DNA of 64,000 bases, taken from NCBI GenBank assembly GCA_022703505.1, contig JAKLDN010000001.1, positions 407,389-471,388 on the forward strand. The letters run 5' to 3'. Numbering within the stretch: position 1 is the stretch's first letter; every line of letters begins with the position of its first letter. The notes beneath the pieces are model-generated. The model was not told the DNA's origin. It did no database searches and worked only from the letters and a program-made list of their open reading frames with translations. Made by a program: the position numbers and the translations under genes. Shown piece after piece: positions 6,069 through 54,893 of this stretch. Source of the DNA: Spirochaetota bacterium. GTDB lineage: Bacteria; Spirochaetota; Spirochaetia; Treponematales; UBA12059.

Positions 6069-6205
6069 TAACAGGCTGGTGACAAAGGCGATGGCGCCTT
6101 TGTCACCAGCATCCTTAATGTCGCAATTGCGCAGAAAAGCGTAAGCTTTTCGAGCAATTGCATAGCAGGGTGCTGACAAGCTTCGAGTTTGTCAGCACCC
6201 TGCTA
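6069..6205. mobile_element. 137-bp TA-flanked MITE-like element with three hairpins
   Basis: The left end TAACAGGCTGGTGACAAA and the inverted right end TAGCAGGGTGCTGACAAA agree at 15 of 18 positions and both begin with TA, as expected for an element with a TA target duplication. Each end folds with its neighbour (6075-6110, 15-16-bp stem; 6163-6205, 17-bp stem) and a third imperfect hairpin (6123-6161) fills the middle. The right-hand TA is part of the stop codon of the STAS gene (CTA, 6203-6205). No open frame lies inside. The plan matches the unrelated 144-bp element at 8351-8494. Confidence 0.55.
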
Positions 6206-16821: not shown

Positions 16822-16964
16822 GAGCCTGTCGGACTTGTAGATTTATAGCGCCCATAGACGCTAAAAATCCCGATTTTCCGGCTCCTTTGGAGTTCGCAAA
16901 GTAGAAAAATCGCATAAAAGGGATTTTTCTACTATTCAAGGTGGGCAAGCCCGACAAACTCCCA
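16819..16964. mobile_element. 146-bp TA-flanked MITE-like element, full copy B
   Basis: This is the copy at 8351-8494 in reverse orientation, alignable end to end. It starts TAGGAGCCTGTCGGACTTG and ends in the complement of GGGAGTTTGTCGGGCTTG. The two inner hairpins have changed in sequence between copies while still pairing (for example GTAGAAAAATC/GATTTTTCTAC). The left TA forms the trxA stop codon. The right flank reads CA rather than TA, so one target base has probably mutated. Confidence 0.68.
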
Positions 16965-27611: not shown

Positions 27612-27828
27612 CGGGCATCACGGTGATCGGAATGTCCCTGCGGGACATTCCGGCTGTCAAGGAACATCACGGTGAGCGGTATCGAGGCGAAGCCTCGATA
27701 CCGGCTCGCAACCACCGGGCATGACGGTGATCGGAATGTCCCTGCGGGACATTCCGGCTGCCAAGGAACATCACGGTGAGCGGTATCGAGGCGAAGCCTC
27801 GATACCGGCTGCCCTGAACGGACCTATC
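27597..27828. repeat. Stop-codon hairpin followed by a 104-bp tandem duplication with paired hairpins
   Basis: First, ACCGTGATGCCC and GGGCATCACGGT enclose the TAA stop. Then two 104-bp units follow, each holding a 10-bp hairpin (GGAATGTCCC/GGGACATTCC at 27629-27651 and 27733-27755) and a 12-bp hairpin with GAA loop (CGGTATCGAGGC/GCCTCGATACCG at 27677-27703 and 27781-27807). The units differ at only a few positions, so the duplication is recent. There is no T-run and no open frame. Confidence 0.75.
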
Positions 27829-28599: not shown

Positions 28600-30180
28600 T
28601 CACAGATCCCAGATCTCCCCGAACTCGTGCTCCCGGTCGCAGTACTGACAGGTGAAGATCCGCTCCCCGGTGCGGCGGAAACGGGCCGGAGCGCCCTCCC
28701 GATGGGAGGGGTGGGAGACGCAGGCTTCGTTCTTGCACGAGATCTGGTCGAAGTTGTAGATCCGGGGGGGCATGGCCAAGCGGTACTTCTTGAGGACCCG
28801 GGAGTCCTTGATCAGATTAAGGGTGCAGCCCGGGACGATGGCCCCGAGCTTCTTGAGGTCCCGGCGGTCGAAGGCCAGGATGTCCGGCAGGGAGAGGATG
28901 CCCTTGTAGACCTCGGGCCCCGCGTTGGAGTGGTAGACTCCGTGGGAGGACCGGACGTCCAGGCCCAGGATGCGGCGGACCTTGTCGACGGTATCCCAGA
29001 TCTCCCGGATCGGGCGGCCCGCGGCGATATGGTCGATGACGATCCCGCTCTCCACGGGTTTTATGCCCACCTTGTAGTCCGGCTTGACCCGAGGCGTCAC
29101 CTTGGCCTCGGTCACGAAGTCCTCCTCGAACCTCAGGGGTTCCTTGGGCAGGCCCCGGAAGTCCCCGCCCAGGGCTCCGGACACCAGGCCCAGGAGGGCG
29201 ATGCGGACGAAGTAGCCGTTGGCGGATTGGGCGTCCCAGCCGTTCAGGGGCAGCTCGTCCAGGAAGACGGGAATCTCGGGGGCCGTCCGGTCCCGGGGCA
29301 GGGGATGGTAGAACCGGGTTCCCTCGGGCAGGCGGCTCATCATGTCGGGCCGGAAGGTGACGGTCCTGCGGAGCTCCGCGGCCCGGTCCAGGACCCTCTC
29401 CCCCATGCGCTCCAGCTGGAGCCGGGTGTAGTACCAGATCGGGGCGACCCGGCCGGAGGCCAGGTATTCGTCCAGGGACTCGTAGGCCCGGACCTCGAAG
29501 CCCGAGGCCTTCATCCGCTCCACGTAGGCGGGGGGCAGTGCCAGGAGTTCCGGGGCCACCAGGTCCACGGAAACCTCCTTGAAGATCCGCAGCCCCTCGG
29601 CCTTGGAATGGACGGTCCGTCCGTGCCAGAGGTCCCCCACCAGGGCCAAGTGGATCCGGGAGTCGTCCCCGCCCCGGTGCTCCAGGAAGGTGAACTCGTC
29701 CAGGAATTCCTGGGTGGGGTGCTCGTGCTTGCCGTCCCCGGCGTTCAGGAAGGCGGGTTTGGGGAAGCCCGCGGACTCGCAGTAGGTCCCCACGGAGGAG
29801 TCGAGCCAGCGGCAGACTCCCTCCAGGCCCGAGCGGATGACGAAGCAGGACTCGGCGGCGTATCCGACCAGCATCTTGGCCGCGTCCGCCAGGCTCTCGT
29901 TCTTGGCGAAGGAGGAGGTGGCGGCGTCGAACATGTTCACCCGGCAGCCGTGGAACTCCGCGGCGTTCCGGAAGGACTCCCGGGTCCGGGTGGAGTTCTC
30001 TAGGAAGATGAGGTAGGTCTGGTAATCCGGATCCGAGATCCGGAAACGCGAAGGGTCCCGCCCGGACCGGATCGTATCCTTGATATCCCGGGCCAGGGAG
30101 TACAGGTACCGCTGCTCGTCCCCGGAAAGGTCGTCCACCACCGCGATCGTCCTGCCCCGGAAGGGTCCCGTCCGTTCCAC
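28600..30180 (-). CDS. pyrB: Aspartate carbamoyltransferase, catalytic-regulatory (PyrB-PyrI) fusion
   Basis: About 526 residues. The catalytic part (about 1-345) has FLENSTRTRESF (carbamoyl-phosphate site) near 55 and the HPLPRD aspartate-site motif near 270. The C-terminal 150 residues are a PyrI regulatory domain with a zinc site of four cysteines (CKNEACVSHPSH ... CQYCDRE). This makes the first committed pyrimidine step, and a fused regulatory chain implies nucleotide control. GTG at 30180 is chosen because AAGGAGG lies 6 nt upstream; an ATG at 30213 sits just past a T-run. A terminator hairpin (30221-30255) lies directly ahead of the gene on its own strand, with no promoter in between, so attenuation is likely. 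Confidence 0.93.
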   Translation of the reverse strand: MERTGPFRGRTIAVVDDLSGDEQRYLYSLARDIKDTIRSGRDPSRFRISDPDYQTYLIFLENSTRTRESFRNAAEFHGCRVNMFDAATSSFAKNESLADAAKMLVGYAAESCFVIRSGLEGVCRWLDSSVGTYCESAGFPKPAFLNAGDGKHEHPTQEFLDEFTFLEHRGGDDSRIHLALVGDLWHGRTVHSKAEGLRIFKEVSVDLVAPELLALPPAYVERMKASGFEVRAYESLDEYLASGRVAPIWYYTRLQLERMGERVLDRAAELRRTVTFRPDMMSRLPEGTRFYHPLPRDRTAPEIPVFLDELPLNGWDAQSANGYFVRIALLGLVSGALGGDFRGLPKEPLRFEEDFVTEAKVTPRVKPDYKVGIKPVESGIVIDHIAAGRPIREIWDTVDKVRRILGLDVRSSHGVYHSNAGPEVYKGILSLPDILAFDRRDLKKLGAIVPGCTLNLIKDSRVLKKYRLAMPPRIYNFDQISCKNEACVSHPSHREGAPARFRRTGERIFTCQYCDREHEFGEIWDL

Positions 30181-30213
30181 CTTCGTCCTCCTTCTGGTTT
30201 CACCGGTCCGCAT

Positions 30214-30346
30214 AAAAAAAGCTGTCCAAAAAGCTCATTGAGCTTTTTGGACAGCCGCTTCCAAGTCGGCAGGTTCCGACGTTCTCGCCGAGAACGTCGG
30301 AACCTGCGAGGTGAGTCCGATACGTACCCGACGTATCGGACTCACC
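30214..30346 (-). terminator. Three perfect hairpins ending in a terminator upstream of pyrBI
   Basis: Reading leftward: 30310-30346 (16-bp arms), 30269-30307 (19-bp arms) and 30221-30255 (17-bp arms) followed by seven T at 30214-30220. The last is a textbook intrinsic terminator, 34 nt before the pyrBI start. It ends the P83/100 transcript or attenuates pyrBI. The three stems are unrelated in sequence. Confidence 0.75.
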
Positions 30347-30360
30347 GGCCGCCTTCCGCA

Positions 30361-31920
30361 TCACCGTCGGATCTCCTTGACGGTCTTCAGGTCCGCCTTG
30401 TTCAGCAGGATGAGGCCTCCCCCCGCCCCGGCGACCACGAGTCCCTCGGGGACGGACCTCAGGAAGGTGAAGGGGCTGACCGCGGCCTCGGACTTCATCT
30501 TGAGCTCCAAGGTCGCGGGATCGAATAGCCCGAGGACCCACTTCCCGCCGTCGTTAGCCACCGCCAGGATGCCGGCACCCTCCTTCCAGACCCCCGTCTC
30601 GGGGTGGACGTCCACGGTCCCGGTGACCTTGGCGGAGAGAGTCTCCAGGTCCAGGAGCACGAGGCGAACGGCCCCGGAGCCCTCGGCCCGGCCGGCCACG
30701 GCTACGAAGGCTCCCCCGATGTCCAGGAGGCTGTCCGCCCGGAGGGTGTTGATCTCCCCGGTCTTCAGGTATTTCCCGCCGGCCAGGTCCACCAGGGCCA
30801 GCCGGGCGTAGGGGCGGTTCGGGTCCACCAAGTCCAAGAGGACCGAGCCCCGCGGAGCGGCCTCGGCCTTGGCCGCGACCTCCTTGGCTATCTCCGCCTT
30901 CTGGTCTTCCGCCACGGCCTTGCGGTCCTCGGCGATCTCCGCCTCCTTGGCGGCCACCGCGGCCTCCTCCTTGGTGGTCTCCTCCTTGGCCGCGGCGACG
31001 GCGGCTTCCTTTTCGGCCGCGGCCTTCTCCTGGGCCGCGACCTCCGCCTCCCGGCGGGTAAGCTCGGCCTCCTGCTCGGGGCCCTGGGCGGAAGCTCTGT
31101 CCCTCTCCAACTCCGCCCGGGCCGCCTCGGCCCTCGCCGTTTCCTCGGCTGCGGCTTTTTCCTGCTCCGCGATCCGGGCCTTGTCCTCCTCGAGCCGTGC
31201 CTTGTCCTGCTCGACCTCCCGTTCCTTGAGGTCCACCATCTCCCGCCGTTCCGGGAGAGCCGCGGTACCGGACTCCTCCTTGAGGCTCTCCACCACGGAC
31301 TTGTCCGTGATGGGCCCCGTGTCCACCCGGCCGGGAGTCCCGGCCCGAGCGGTGATCGGAAGGACGATGCGGCTGCGTCCGGCCCACTCGTCCCAGCGGA
31401 CCGAGAGTCCGGCGTTCTCGGCCGTCAGGTGGGTCAGGACCGCGGGTTTGTAGGCCTTGCCGAAATAGGCCAGGTCGCCCCGGTACACGGCGTTGTACAC
31501 CGTGAGGAAGGTGGCAAGGAGGAAGCCGTCCGACCGGGAGTAGCCGTAGGCTTCCTCCAGGTAGGCCCCCAGGATGTGCCGGAGATTCCGGATGTGGTCC
31601 ACCCCGGCGTCGCGTCCCAGGATGATGATGTCCGCGTCCAGGCCCGAGGGCGCCTGGGGATCCCGCACCCGGATGACCGCGTACCGGGTCTCGCTTCCCG
31701 CCCGAGTCGCCCCGGCCCGTACGGCCCGGCCGAGGGCGGCCCCCAGGCCCCGGATCTCGTCCAAAGAATCGATTCGGGCGTGGGGTCCCACGTAGTTGAT
31801 GAACTCGATGGTCCTTCCGCCCACGGAGCGGAGCTCGTCCTCCGCCACGGTCTGGGCGGAAAGGATCGCCCCGGCCGTCAGGAAGGCGAGGAGGGCCGGG
31901 AGGGCGAGGTATTTTTTCAC
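30361..31920 (-). CDS. P83/100 family protein
   Basis: 519 residues with a cleavable signal peptide (LLAFLTAGAILSA). The N-terminal domain (about 25-200, with IEFINYVGPHARIDSLDEI and RNLRHILGAYLEEAYGY) matches the spirochaetal P83/100 antigen family of Borrelia and Treponema. The middle (about 225-385) is a long alanine-, glutamate- and lysine-rich coiled coil. The C-terminus (about 390-519) looks like a partial beta-propeller. Its role is unknown; it is periplasmic or surface-associated. GTG start at 31920 has TAGGAGGAATC. It follows the PQQ/HEAT gene by 12 nt, so the two form an operon. This gene is the best taxonomic marker in the window. Confidence 0.85.
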   Translation of the reverse strand: MKKYLALPALLAFLTAGAILSAQTVAEDELRSVGGRTIEFINYVGPHARIDSLDEIRGLGAALGRAVRAGATRAGSETRYAVIRVRDPQAPSGLDADIIILGRDAGVDHIRNLRHILGAYLEEAYGYSRSDGFLLATFLTVYNAVYRGDLAYFGKAYKPAVLTHLTAENAGLSVRWDEWAGRSRIVLPITARAGTPGRVDTGPITDKSVVESLKEESGTAALPERREMVDLKEREVEQDKARLEEDKARIAEQEKAAAEETARAEAARAELERDRASAQGPEQEAELTRREAEVAAQEKAAAEKEAAVAAAKEETTKEEAAVAAKEAEIAEDRKAVAEDQKAEIAKEVAAKAEAAPRGSVLLDLVDPNRPYARLALVDLAGGKYLKTGEINTLRADSLLDIGGAFVAVAGRAEGSGAVRLVLLDLETLSAKVTGTVDVHPETGVWKEGAGILAVANDGGKWVLGLFDPATLELKMKSEAAVSPFTFLRSVPEGLVVAGAGGGLILLNKADLKTVKEIRR

Positions 31921-50686: not shown

Positions 50687-51652
50687 TCAGCCCCGGACCC
50701 GGGCCCAGAGCTCCCGCAGGCTCGGGGCCTCGACCCCCGATGCGTCCACGAGGGCCCGGAGCCCCCCGGCCAGCGTTTCCATCTCCGCGCGGGCGGCGTT
50801 CGCGTGCCGGGCGATCACGGTCTCCCCCCAGGAGGAGCCGACCGCCGGGGCGAAGGCCGCCGCGACGAGGGAGGCGGGCAGGACGGCCAGGATGCCCAGG
50901 CGGGCGGGTCGGATCGTGATCCCGGAGGCCCGCAGGGCCCGGAATCCCTCCCGGACCGCGGCGGCCATGAGCCGGAGCGTCCGGGTGTCCCGCGCCAGAG
51001 CCCGGTGGTCGCCGGCCTTGGCGTACAGGGCGTCCGCTATGGGGCTCACCAGGGCCACATGGGTCTTCTGCCAGGCGTCCATGTCCCGCTCCAGTGCGGC
51101 GGGAAACCCCGCCTTGCGGATAGCCTGCAGGAGCCGAAGGAGGGTCACCCGGTCCGTTCCGGGCCCTGAGGGCCCCAGGGTGGTGGCCTGCACGATGCCG
51201 GGCACGAGAGTGTACAGCACGGTTCCGTCCGGGAGCCGGGTCCCCCCGGCGCCGGGGAAGGCGAAGGCCAGCCGGGCTTCCGGAAACCGGGACCGGAACT
51301 CGGGGTGGCCGTCCGCGGCGTTCACCATGGGTACCACGAGGCCTCCGGGATCGTCCCGGGCGATTTCCCGGGCAGCCTCATCGGCCTGGTCTTTGCGCAC
51401 CGCCACGAACACCGCGTCCGGTCGGAACTCCCGAAGGGAATCCGGGGCGGCCACCCGTACTTGGGTACGGCGTCCCGAACGCTCGTCCTCCAGCCGGAGA
51501 CCGTCGCTTCGTATCTTATCCGCCCGGTCGCCCCGGGCCAGGATCGCGACCTCGCAGCCCGCCTCCGCGAGCCGCCCGGCGTACAGGCTGCCTATGACGC
51601 CCGCGCCGAAAACCGCGACGCGAAAGGTTTTCTCATCTGTGCCACGCTTCAA
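50687..51652 (-). CDS. Ketopantoate reductase-like (PanE/ApbA) oxidoreductase
   Basis: About 321 residues. The NADP-binding loop RVAVFGAGVIGSLYAGRLAEAG near 10-30 and the second domain (about 180-310) with VSPIADALYAKAGDHRALA fit the PanE/ApbA family. PanE proper reduces ketopantoate in coenzyme A synthesis, but several paralogues have other substrates. The start is a TTG at 51652, with GGAGG 7 nt upstream, overlapping the ATPase stop codon (TTGA). The protein is thus coupled to a P-type ATPase, an unexpected partner. If that overlap is real, the ATPase promoter drives both. Confidence 0.8.
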   Translation of the reverse strand: MKRGTDEKTFRVAVFGAGVIGSLYAGRLAEAGCEVAILARGDRADKIRSDGLRLEDERSGRRTQVRVAAPDSLREFRPDAVFVAVRKDQADEAAREIARDDPGGLVVPMVNAADGHPEFRSRFPEARLAFAFPGAGGTRLPDGTVLYTLVPGIVQATTLGPSGPGTDRVTLLRLLQAIRKAGFPAALERDMDAWQKTHVALVSPIADALYAKAGDHRALARDTRTLRLMAAAVREGFRALRASGITIRPARLGILAVLPASLVAAAFAPAVGSSWGETVIARHANAARAEMETLAGGLRALVDASGVEAPSLRELWARVRG

Positions 51653-54222
51653 TTGGACGCCTCCGATTTCCCGATCCTGCGGGCCCGGATCAGACCGGGC
51701 AGCTTCACGCTCTCGGCCGCGGCGACGGCCGCCACTCCGGAGCCCAGGGAAAACAGCACCTGCCAGAGATGCACGGGCGCGAACCCGAAAATGCTGTTGA
51801 CCGCGGGCACGAACACGGCGACCGCGAGGAAGGCGAGGGCACCTCCCACCACCCAGGTCTGCGCCGGATTGCGCCGGGCGAGGATCCGGAACAAGCCTTG
51901 GCTCCGGGACCGGTTGGATATGATCATCCCGATGTTGCCGAACACCAGCCCCACGAAGGAGAGCGCCCTCGCCTCCCCCTCCCCGAATCCCGAAAGCAGG
52001 GACCACCCGTAGATGGCCGCCACCAGGGTGAAGACCGCCAATCCCTGGACTACGGCCATCGCCACGAGATTCCGCCCGAACAGGCGCTCCGTGGTCTTAC
52101 GGGGAGGACGGTCCATGACGTCCTCCTCCTCGTCCTCCATCTCGAAGATGATCGAGCAGGCCGGATCGATGATCAGTTCCAGGAACAGGATGTGGACCGG
52201 CAGGAGCGCCAAGGGCCACCCGAGCAGCACGGGGAGGAGGGCCATCCCCGCGATGGGAAGGTGCACCGCCAGTATGAAAGTGATGGCCTTGCGCAGGTTG
52301 TCGTAGATCCTGCGGCCCGTCTTGACCGCCTGCACGATCGAAGCGAAATCGTCGTCCAGAAGGACGAGGTCGGCGGATTCACGGGCCACGTCCGTTCCGC
52401 GCCCGCCCATGGCGATGCCGATGTCCGCAGCCTTGAGCGCGGGGGCGTCATTGACCCCGTCCCCGGTCATGGCGACCACCTCTCCGTTGGACTTCAACGC
52501 CTCGACGATACGGAGCTTCTGCTCGGGCACGGCCCGGGCGACAACATTGGTCCGGGCCAACCGCACCCGGAGCTCCCCGGCATCCAGGGTTTCGATCTCG
52601 GGGCCGGTGAGCACGTCCCCGGGGTTGTCGATTCCGGCCTTCCGGGCGATGTTCGAGGCCGTGCCGGGATAGTCGCCGGTGATCATGAGCACCCGTATGC
52701 CGGCCCGGCGGCAGAGCGCTACCGCGTCTGGGACCTGGGCCCGGATCGGGTCCTGTAGCCCCATGAGCCCCTGGAGTTCGAACGGAAAATCGTGCTGTCC
52801 TTCCGGCAACCCCCCAGCGGGGATCCGGGACGAGGCCACGGCGATGACCCGGAGCCCGTCGGCGGCCATGCGGTCCACGCAGGCGCGCAATTCGGAGCCG
52901 GCCGCCTCATCCAGGTGACAGAGGTCGGACACGGCCTCCGGGGCGCCTTTCGCGGCCACGACAAAACCGCCGTCGACGGTGGATTCCCAGACGCGGCTCA
53001 TGGCCAGGAGCTTTTCCGAGAGGGGGTATTCGCGCAACAGCTTCCAGTCGTCCCGGAGGTGCTCGGTGTTCATTAAGGTTCGTACTCCGAGTTCCCGCAT
53101 CGCCTTCTCCATGGGATCGAACGGATCCTTGGGGCTGGCCAGCAGGGTGTGCTCCACGAGCGCGTGATACTCCTCGGGGAGCAGGTTGTCCGCCTGCCCC
53201 ACCTTCGAGACCCGGGTCCCCACGCAGAGCTCGGCCACCGTCATGCGATTCATCGTGAGGGTGCCCGTCTTGTCCGTGCAGAGCACGGTGGCGGAGCCCA
53301 GGGTCTCGACGGCCGGCATGCGCCGGGTCAGCACCGACCGCTTGGAGATGCGCCAGGCGCCCAGGGCCAGGAAGACGGTCAACACGACGGGGAACTCCTC
53401 GGGAAGGGTCGCCATGGCCAGGGACAGACCCGCCAACACGCCCCGGAGCCAGTTGCCCCGGGTGAATCCGAAGACGAGCACCACCAGTACGCACAGGAAC
53501 AAACCGGCCAGCGCGAACGACTTGACGATTCGGCCGGTTTCGGCCTGGAGCCGTGTCTGCCCGGTCTCTATGGTCTGGAGCGCCTTCCCGATCTTGCCCA
53601 TCTCGGTCTGTATTCCCGTGGAGGTTACCCGCACGACGGCTTGACCCCGTACGACCATGCTGCCCGAGTACACCATGGGCTGGTCGTCGCCGCCGGGCCG
53701 CCCGGGATCGGCTTTCCCGTCCCACGCGGCCTTACGCACGGGCACCGATTCCCCGGTCAGCAGGGACTCGTCCGCGGACAGGTTCACCTGGTGCAGCACC
53801 AGCGCGTCCGCCGGTACACGGTCGCCCTCGGCCAACAGGACGATGTCGTCCCGCACGACCTCCTTGCCGGCTATCCGGCGCTGTTCCCCGTCCCGGACCA
53901 CCAGGGCTCTCGGACTGGAGAGGTCCCGCAGCGCGTCCAGGGCCTTTTCGGTTTTGCCTTCCTGGTAGACCGTTATCCCGATGATGACGGCCACGAATCC
54001 CAGGAGCATTAGAGCTTCCTCGGGATCCCCGAGTATCAGGTACAAAAGCCCGCAGGCGACCAGGAGCAGGAACATGGGTTCCCGAAATACCTCGAACACT
54101 ATATGGAAAAGACCCCGTTTCTTGCCCTGGGGAAGCTCGTTGTACCCCTCCGAGGACAGGCGCTCGAGAACTTCCTCGGAGGACAGGCCCCGCAGGTCCG
54201 CGGGATCGAACGAATCCGGCAT
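51649..54222 (-). CDS. Type II (Ca2+-like) P-type cation ATPase
   Basis: 857 residues. Phosphorylation site CTDKTGTLTMNRM near 317, actuator LLTGESVPV near 155, hinge MTGDGVNDAPALKAADIG near 590, and about ten membrane helices. The helix-4 motif reads PEEFP instead of PEGLP, as in a bacterial subgroup whose ion is not settled; helix 6 shows ELIIDPACSIIFEMEDEEEDVM. It exports or imports a divalent or monovalent cation at ATP cost. ATG at 54222 follows GGAGAG. The promoter at 54290-54318 overlaps a large palindrome shared with the divergent GbsR-type gene. It is coupled to a reductase gene downstream. Confidence 0.9.
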   Translation of the reverse strand: MPDSFDPADLRGLSSEEVLERLSSEGYNELPQGKKRGLFHIVFEVFREPMFLLLVACGLLYLILGDPEEALMLLGFVAVIIGITVYQEGKTEKALDALRDLSSPRALVVRDGEQRRIAGKEVVRDDIVLLAEGDRVPADALVLHQVNLSADESLLTGESVPVRKAAWDGKADPGRPGGDDQPMVYSGSMVVRGQAVVRVTSTGIQTEMGKIGKALQTIETGQTRLQAETGRIVKSFALAGLFLCVLVVLVFGFTRGNWLRGVLAGLSLAMATLPEEFPVVLTVFLALGAWRISKRSVLTRRMPAVETLGSATVLCTDKTGTLTMNRMTVAELCVGTRVSKVGQADNLLPEEYHALVEHTLLASPKDPFDPMEKAMRELGVRTLMNTEHLRDDWKLLREYPLSEKLLAMSRVWESTVDGGFVVAAKGAPEAVSDLCHLDEAAGSELRACVDRMAADGLRVIAVASSRIPAGGLPEGQHDFPFELQGLMGLQDPIRAQVPDAVALCRRAGIRVLMITGDYPGTASNIARKAGIDNPGDVLTGPEIETLDAGELRVRLARTNVVARAVPEQKLRIVEALKSNGEVVAMTGDGVNDAPALKAADIGIAMGGRGTDVARESADLVLLDDDFASIVQAVKTGRRIYDNLRKAITFILAVHLPIAGMALLPVLLGWPLALLPVHILFLELIIDPACSIIFEMEDEEEDVMDRPPRKTTERLFGRNLVAMAVVQGLAVFTLVAAIYGWSLLSGFGEGEARALSFVGLVFGNIGMIISNRSRSQGLFRILARRNPAQTWVVGGALAFLAVAVFVPAVNSIFGFAPVHLWQVLFSLGSGVAAVAAAESVKLPGLIRARRIGKSEASN

Positions 54223-54289
54223 TTTTCTCTCCTGGGTATTCGGATGGGCCGGGTGCGGCGCACTGCCGTCTTTCCCGGCGCTCCCAGGA

Positions 54290-54318
54290 ATACTAATTTG
54301 TTCTTAACGTTTAGTCAA
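54290..54318 (-). promoter_or_regulatory. Promoter of the P-type ATPase gene
   Basis: TTGACT (54313-54318), 17-bp spacer, TAGTAT (54290-54295). One arm of the operator palindrome lies between the two boxes. Confidence 0.75.
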
Positions 54319-54338
54319 TACTGAACGTTAAGAACAAA
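54297..54338. promoter_or_regulatory. Operator: 15-bp perfect palindrome arms between ATPase and GbsR genes
   Basis: TTTGTTCTTAACGTT (54297-54311) and AACGTTAAGAACAAA (54324-54338) around a 12-bp spacer. It covers the spacer and -35 of the leftward promoter and ends 4 bp before the rightward -35, so bound regulator would control both. Confidence 0.75.
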
Positions 54339-54341
54339 ACC

Positions 54342-54370
54342 TTGACATGGAATTTCGGGAATGCCATACT
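54342..54370 (+). promoter_or_regulatory. Promoter of the GbsR-type regulator
   Basis: TTGACA (54342-54347), 17-bp spacer, CATACT (54365-54370), about 23 nt before the ATG at 54393. Confidence 0.7.
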
Positions 54371-54392
54371 CCGATCCCACGGGGGACTTCCC

Positions 54393-54893
54393 ATGGTTGG
54401 AACGGAAATTCGTGAACTTCACTTTATCGAGGATATCGGGCTTTTTTTCGAGCAGATGGGCATGCCCCGGATGGCAGGCCGCATCCTGGGCGTACTCCTG
54501 ATCTGCGACCCCCCCGAACAGTCCCTGAACGACATCGGAGAGGCCGCGAGGGCCTCGAAGGCGTCGGTCTCGACCATGACCCGGCTCCTGGCCTCTTCGG
54601 GGTTGATCGAGCAGGTCCCCTCCCCCGTTCCCCGGAGGGATTACTTCCGCTACCGCAAAGGCGGCTGGCTAAGCTTCATGCGCCAGCGCATGGAGATCAT
54701 GGCCGCCCTGCACGACATCACGGAAAAAGGGCTGGGCATCCTGGACGGCAAGGATCCGGCGCTCAGGGAGCGGCTCTGCGAGGCGCACGACATCTTCGAG
54801 TTCGTGGAGAACGAGTTCCCCGACTGGCTCGAACGCATGGCCGCCAAGCGCGGCGCGAACTTGGGCCGGCGCAGGCTGGGGGACAGGCCCTGA
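54393..54893 (+). CDS. GbsR/MarR family transcriptional regulator
   Basis: About 166 residues. A winged helix near 15-85 (MAGRILGVLLICDPPEQSLNDIGEAARASKASVSTMTRLL) and a helical dimer tail match the GbsR subgroup (choline sensors in Bacillus). The ligand here is unknown. I use ATG 54393, which has GGGGGAC upstream; a start 17 codons earlier would begin inside the -35 box. The operator palindrome and a divergent promoter suggest that it represses itself and the ATPase-reductase pair. Confidence 0.85.
   Translation: MVGTEIRELHFIEDIGLFFEQMGMPRMAGRILGVLLICDPPEQSLNDIGEAARASKASVSTMTRLLASSGLIEQVPSPVPRRDYFRYRKGGWLSFMRQRMEIMAALHDITEKGLGILDGKDPALRERLCEAHDIFEFVENEFPDWLERMAAKRGANLGRRRLGDRP

Follow-up and report, generated by a model that had tools for sequence, protein, structure and literature searches.

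A candidate operator centred on the -35 of a P-type ATPase promoter, next to a MarR-type regulator gene, in a Spirochaetota bacterium

A palindrome between divergent regulator and ATPase genes

The window, by which we mean the whole 64,000-nucleotide stretch of spirochaete DNA that was analysed, carries a long palindrome between two divergent genes, one for a P-type ATPase (ATG at 54222, minus strand) and one for a transcription regulator (ATG at 54393, plus strand). The regulator gene (54393..54893, plus strand) encodes a MarR-type (PF12802) protein of 166 aa. Its start was set at ATG 54393, in agreement with aligned relatives, while the mechanical reading frame opens upstream at 54342. The Pfam MarR_2 model matches the protein with 30.8 bits against a gathering score of 27. 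Its closest solved relative is 4nb5, which is Rv0678 (MmpR5) of M. tuberculosis (PMC10156607), with E 6.3e-27 over residues 3-154 for the single sequence and E 5.4e-30 over profile positions 9-153 for a profile. The earlier note on this DNA described the regulator as GbsR-type, a name that fits in a broad sense only. The GbsR-like MJ223 matches it at 0.022 alone and at 3e-05 with the profile, Rv0678 is the better solved relative, and the choline regulator model CudC yields 19.5 bits where its cut-off is 218. Among the scanned neighbours (the ATPase, an ApbA-like enzyme and a patatin-like protein) there are no glycine-betaine synthesis or Opu genes. A structure model of the regulator built from 8 sequences has low confidence (mean pLDDT 63.3) and is therefore too weak for the pocket to be read from it.

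The ATPase gene (51649..54222, minus strand) encodes a P2-like protein of 857 aa with the DKTGTLT phosphorylation motif. Its closest solved relative is the Listeria calcium pump lmo0841 (E 5.3e-126), and the three curated Ca2+-pump models listed all score below their cut-offs (PMR1-type 504.3 of 798.3 bits, SERCA-type 405.8 of 703.4, PMCA-type 371.3 of 507.05). Aligned with lmo0841, the protein has PEEFP for PEALS in TM4, VH for GN in TM5 and LELIID for INLVND in TM6. These stretches of TM4 to TM6 are the putative ion-site stretches. PEEFP, VHLP (VHIP in locus L030) and LELIIDP are common to all 11 aligned ATPase orthologues. The ATPase gene is followed by one for a ketopantoate-reductase-like (ApbA) enzyme of 321 aa (50687..51652, minus strand), whose start was placed from the sequence and from homology that opens near residue 36 of a longer frame. 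This TTG start overlaps the ATPase stop codon (TTGA), and translation of the two genes is therefore probably coupled.

The palindrome spans 54297..54338 and has no strand. An inverted-repeat search gives two arms of 19 nt (54297-54315 and 54320-54338) that are 95% complementary, with one mismatch and 4 nt between them; the core TTTAGTCAATACTGAA lies within it at 54310-54325. Pairing is exact over the 15 outermost nt of each arm, with 12 nt in between. The earlier note had reported two perfect 15-bp arms, and the arms are indeed exact, but the spacing it gave, N18, is 12 bp from TTAACGTT to AACGTTAA. With 29% GC, the palindrome is among the two most A/T-rich of the 21 inverted repeats listed, the other being 16900-16933. 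Arm length is weak evidence and we dropped it as an argument, because 2 of 40 dinucleotide-shuffled versions of the window also gave exact 15-nt arms within a 40-nt gap, and exact stem-loops with arms of up to 19 nt are present elsewhere in it.

A consensus scan of 54200-54450 returned exactly two promoter-like sites (shuffle mean 0.1), the same divergent TTGAC-type pair described before, and no terminator-like site in the same interval. The predicted ATPase promoter (54290..54318, minus strand) has a -35 TTGACT at 54318-54313, a 17-bp spacer and a -10 TAGTAT at 54295-54290. The predicted regulator promoter (54342..54370, plus strand) has a -35 TTGACA at 54342-54347, a 17-bp spacer and a -10 CATACT at 54365-54370. 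From these positions, the palindrome covers the ATPase -35 and most of its spacer and ends 3 nt before the regulator -35. One -35 sits at the operator centre, and the other begins 3 nt past the palindrome.

Conservation of the site and of its register

We searched 96 genomes, the bacterium's own and related ones, for the regulator at E 0.001 or better. It was found in 6 of the 96, and in all six the ATPase adjoins it. One of these genomes holds a second, weak match (L009, 42% identity over query residues 5-112), near which there is no ATPase. Two further pairs, both from outside the family, came from scanning named genomes: L029 (uncultured bacterium) and L030 (labelled Anaerolineales). In these two, regulator and ATPase share a strand, with the regulator upstream. 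The pair set thus comprises 8 loci, from six genomes of one family and two of another phylum.

The operator is present in all eight. Profiles built with the tested group held out (the window's own genus, the four other family members or the two outsiders) rank it first in 8/8 loci, by a margin of at least 21 bits. Their core scores range from 24.6 to 31.4 bits, and the next-best site reaches at most 6.1, in searched stretches of 4972 to 64000 bases per locus. ATPase orthologues that occur without the regulator and have readable upstream DNA (L024 and L025) lack the operator in both cases; two more ATPase loci, L026 and L027, lack their upstream end and so are uninformative about the operator. 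Since the site recurs at this position next to the regulator and ATPase pair in other bacteria, it is very probably where the proposed repressor lands.

Long, near-perfect outer arms are restricted to the window genus among the eight pair loci. Of 18 outer-arm positions, 15-16 are symmetric in that genus; the remaining six loci have 9-13, although their outer TTC/GAA positions stay biased. The relatives keep the central operator sequence while the symmetry of the arms drops, so the outer arms may be dispensable. Conservation, and not arm length, is the strong evidence for the palindrome. A different arrangement, with each arm as a separate dimer site, was considered since CTnAACGTTnAG is nearly palindromic in the window. 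We disfavour it, because L012-L014 break the left AACGTT yet keep the central repeat, as judged by eye.

The position of the site relative to the ATPase promoter is conserved as well. In 8/8 pair loci a -35-like hexamer (TTGACT or TTTACA) starts 1 nt before the operator centre and is followed by a 17-bp spacer and TAnnnT. The promoter so defined always aims at the ATPase: it faces away from the regulator where the genes diverge (six loci) and reads through the regulator where they are co-directional (two loci). Promoter mismatches at the operator number 2 to 4 across the loci, with at most 3 in seven of them and 4 in one. Random positions, allowed 8 offsets, 3 spacings and both strands, gave at most 3 mismatches in 22 of 4000 trials and at most 4 in 112 of 4000. 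In contrast, the regulator's own promoter keeps no fixed distance to the operator: the distance to the operator centre is 24-25 bp in the window genus and 43 bp in four other loci.

These distances bear on the possibility that the regulator mainly controls its own promoter, either as a repressor or as a class-I-like activator from a site lying ~60 bp (window genus) or 79 bp (four relatives) upstream of the inferred start of the regulator. Such a role would suit the window and L010, where the operator abuts the regulator -35. However, the shift from 24-25 to 43 bp between genera, set against an ATPase -35 register that is the same in 8/8 loci and stays with the ATPase even under a different gene order, makes it improbable that this is the main function of the site.

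The reductase-like gene is less constant than the ATPase. The earlier note took the two together as the regulated pair. The ATPase is present at 8/8 loci, by the way the loci were chosen, but the reductase-like gene was seen in 4/8, in one of them cut by the contig end; L012 and L029 hold just ~1 kb beyond the ATPase, which limits this count.

Between the window family and the other phylum (L029, L030) the regulator and ATPase pair is 58-64% identical. Gene order is divergent in the family and co-directional in L029 and L030, and the position of the operator with respect to the promoter aimed at the ATPase is unchanged. This identity across phyla, together with the changed gene order and the kept operator place, suggests that the pair moved by horizontal transfer.

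The core motif in genomes and in the wider regulator family

The core occurs once in the 3.66-Mb genome of the bacterium, and the long palindrome pattern also occurs once, even with up to 3 mismatches. A genome search for the operator, proposed in the earlier note, therefore recovered the window site and no second copy. As both patterns are single in the genome, the adjacent regulator looks local in its action. A looser core with 2 mismatches gave 2 sites in this genome compared with 3 for a reversed control, and for this reason we claim no regulon.

The same looser search in five family relatives (G001, G006, G008, G016 and G020) returned 3, 3, 3, 6 and 4 sites, against 1, 1, 0, 0 and 1 for the reversed control. 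Of these 19 sites, as opposed to 3 control sites, five are the operator itself. These relatives may thus carry weaker second operator sites. The two outsiders gave 19 and 10 sites versus 22 and 12 for the reversed control. G016 has the most near-matches to the core at 2 mismatches (six, with none in its reversed control).

To look beyond the pair loci, we used 39 loci from the scan of named genomes. L028 (by its length and match the same contig as G001, our L010), the pair loci L029 and L030, and L066 (a 33-residue match) were left out, leaving 35 distant relatives. The pattern TTYAGTnnnnACTRAA lies within 350 bp upstream of the regulator relative in 23/35 at up to 2 mismatches and in 14/35 at up to 1, a count that is partly circular because the pattern was fixed after a profile scan of the same 35 loci. 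Control stretches of these loci contain it in 11/1050 and 5/1050 cases, respectively. The other 12 of the 35 have no core within 2 mismatches upstream. With the pattern fixed, and no separate control, it was found at up to 1 mismatch in 13 of 20 further loci (L071-L077 and L079-L091), unevenly spread: in 12 of the 13 loci reached via the second phylum and in 1 of the seven from the window's own phylum. Even at 2 mismatches, just 1 of 7 own-phylum relatives beyond the family has the core. The locked -35 register with TAnnnT appears in 17 of the 27 loci of the wider regulator family that have the core at up to 1 mismatch; within the set, L083-L088 look mutually close, and L054 and L091, which show the same site, could belong to a single organism.

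Searches with the window ATPase gave no match at E 1e-8 in L031-L066, and none at E 1e-5 in L009, L071-L077 and L079-L091, where the flank is ~1.5 kb or less. Of the loci L071-L092, only L078 and L092 match it, and these duplicate L030 and L029. The neighbours of the distant relatives include ABC transporter ATPases (6/32) and alpha/beta hydrolases (6/32), in a survey that used simple gene calling and scanned 32 of 69 candidate neighbour proteins. On a Streptomyces sp. contig (L065:6001-7000), two weak relatives of the regulator stand in tandem.

The palindrome could also be a site for a different, more global regulator, for which the weaker sites in some relatives would speak. We regard this as very unlikely, given that the core is single in the bacterium's own genome, that the site is absent upstream of ATPases without the regulator (2/2 testable) and that the core recurs upstream of relatives of the adjacent regulator. 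A transcribed hairpin, acting as terminator or attenuator, is also very unlikely: a stem with 18 of 19 pairs could form, but the palindrome lies upstream of both predicted starts, the scan of 54200-54450 holds no terminator-like site, and the relatives keep the central sequence while symmetry drops to 9-13 of 18.

Proposed repression of the ATPase, related systems and other repeats

We consider it highly likely, judging from conservation, position and family motif, that the adjacent MarR-type regulator has the palindrome as its operator and represses the ATPase by covering its -35. Sequence comparison supports this operator reading well. A regulator dimer would bind the central inverted repeat GTTYAGTnnnnACTRAAC, and the A/T-rich outer arms might extend the contact or hold further half-sites. 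Bound in this way, the regulator would cover the ATPase -35 at the operator centre and deny RNA polymerase access. Release of the repressor would come from an inducer, plausibly what the pump transports or a stress demanding the pump, and would switch on the ATPase and, in this bacterium, the coupled reductase-like enzyme. That the regulator binds, represses and responds to an inducer is what we infer from the DNA, and it may instead act as an activator. Autoregulation is possible, though it is not indicated where the genes diverge, because the distance from the operator to the regulator promoter varies there; in the two co-directional loci one promoter would serve both regulator and ATPase.

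The proposed arrangement resembles that of Rv0678 (MmpR5), the MarR-type repressor of mmpS5-mmpL5 in M. tuberculosis, in being a local repressor of a membrane pump, although Rv0678 controls the MmpS5-MmpL5 efflux pump and not a P-type ATPase. The Rv0678 region TTTCAGAGTACAGTGAAA, discussed as a promoter or binding region in part of PMC10300004, has by eye an inverted form similar to the window core. The same source describes TTTCAGAGTACAGTGAAA as a possible -10 of Rv0678, whereas the window core overlaps a -35. Rv0678 itself is outside the 35 relatives scored for the core. Passages on Rv0678 in PMC10312376 give no motif, and in open-access full text we found no paper on an MmpR5 operator palindrome.

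Likewise, OpcR and GbsR of B. subtilis are MarR-type proteins, and OpcR represses by covering a -35, as proposed here, according to PMC7396694. In that paper the operator of GbsR is an inverted repeat, A/T-rich, whose halves lie 4 bp apart. Unlike the ATPase considered here, the targets of these regulators are compatible-solute genes, with choline as the GbsR inducer, and GbsR works as a roadblock downstream of the transcription start rather than by the -35 covering proposed for the window regulator (PMC7396694). The window regulator also differs from GbsR proper in its weak match to the choline-regulator model CudC. By description, CydE-type relatives of GbsR are comparable as GbsR-like local regulators adjoining a membrane system, but their target is cytochrome bd oxidase (PMC6207618, in part).

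The neighbour classes given for GbsR-type regulators in PMC6207618 are betaine synthesis, Opu transporters and cytochrome bd oxidase, and further transporters for ammonium, molybdenum and sugars and of the BCCT type. No P-type ATPase is among these classes, and 'P-type' has 0 occurrences in the main text of that paper. The earlier statement that the gene pair is not a known GbsR target agrees with these classes and with our full-text searches of the open literature; in open-access full text we found no earlier description of a MarR/GbsR-type regulator with a P-type pump as its target. The type of mechanism, a MarR-type repressor with an operator covering a -35, is already known; it is the target pump that we did not find described.

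A broader reading combines several of these points, and as a whole we offer it tentatively, as rather doubtful. First, a cassette shared horizontally between spirochaetes and the second phylum would place a P-type pump whose ion site is non-canonical under an MmpR5-like sensor. Second, this pump, which has His in TM5 and both Glu and Asp in TM6, may transport an unusual cation or amphiphile, to which the sensor responds. Third, much of the wider regulator family would share one design, locked in register, with the -35 hexamer as the centre of the operator. The locus offers a testable candidate operator for a little-studied MarR-type group and names a P-type pump as the target. A core with an embedded -35, present in part of the wider family, would help sequence-based prediction of what MmpR5-like regulators control, and the conserved association of regulator and ATPase offers a way to approach the ion that this group of ATPases carries.

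Other repeats were seen elsewhere in the window. The gap between the minus-strand frames 28600-30213 and 30361-31920 is almost filled, at 30221-30346, by three different stem-loops arranged head to tail, whose exact arms measure 16-19 nt. The layout at 6075-6205, also at a gap between minus-strand frames, is similar, with two different long exact stem-loops and a third, imperfect one between them by eye. A tandem repeat at 27612-27810, with a unit of 104 bp (1.9 copies, 97% matches), contains two different stem-loops in alternation.
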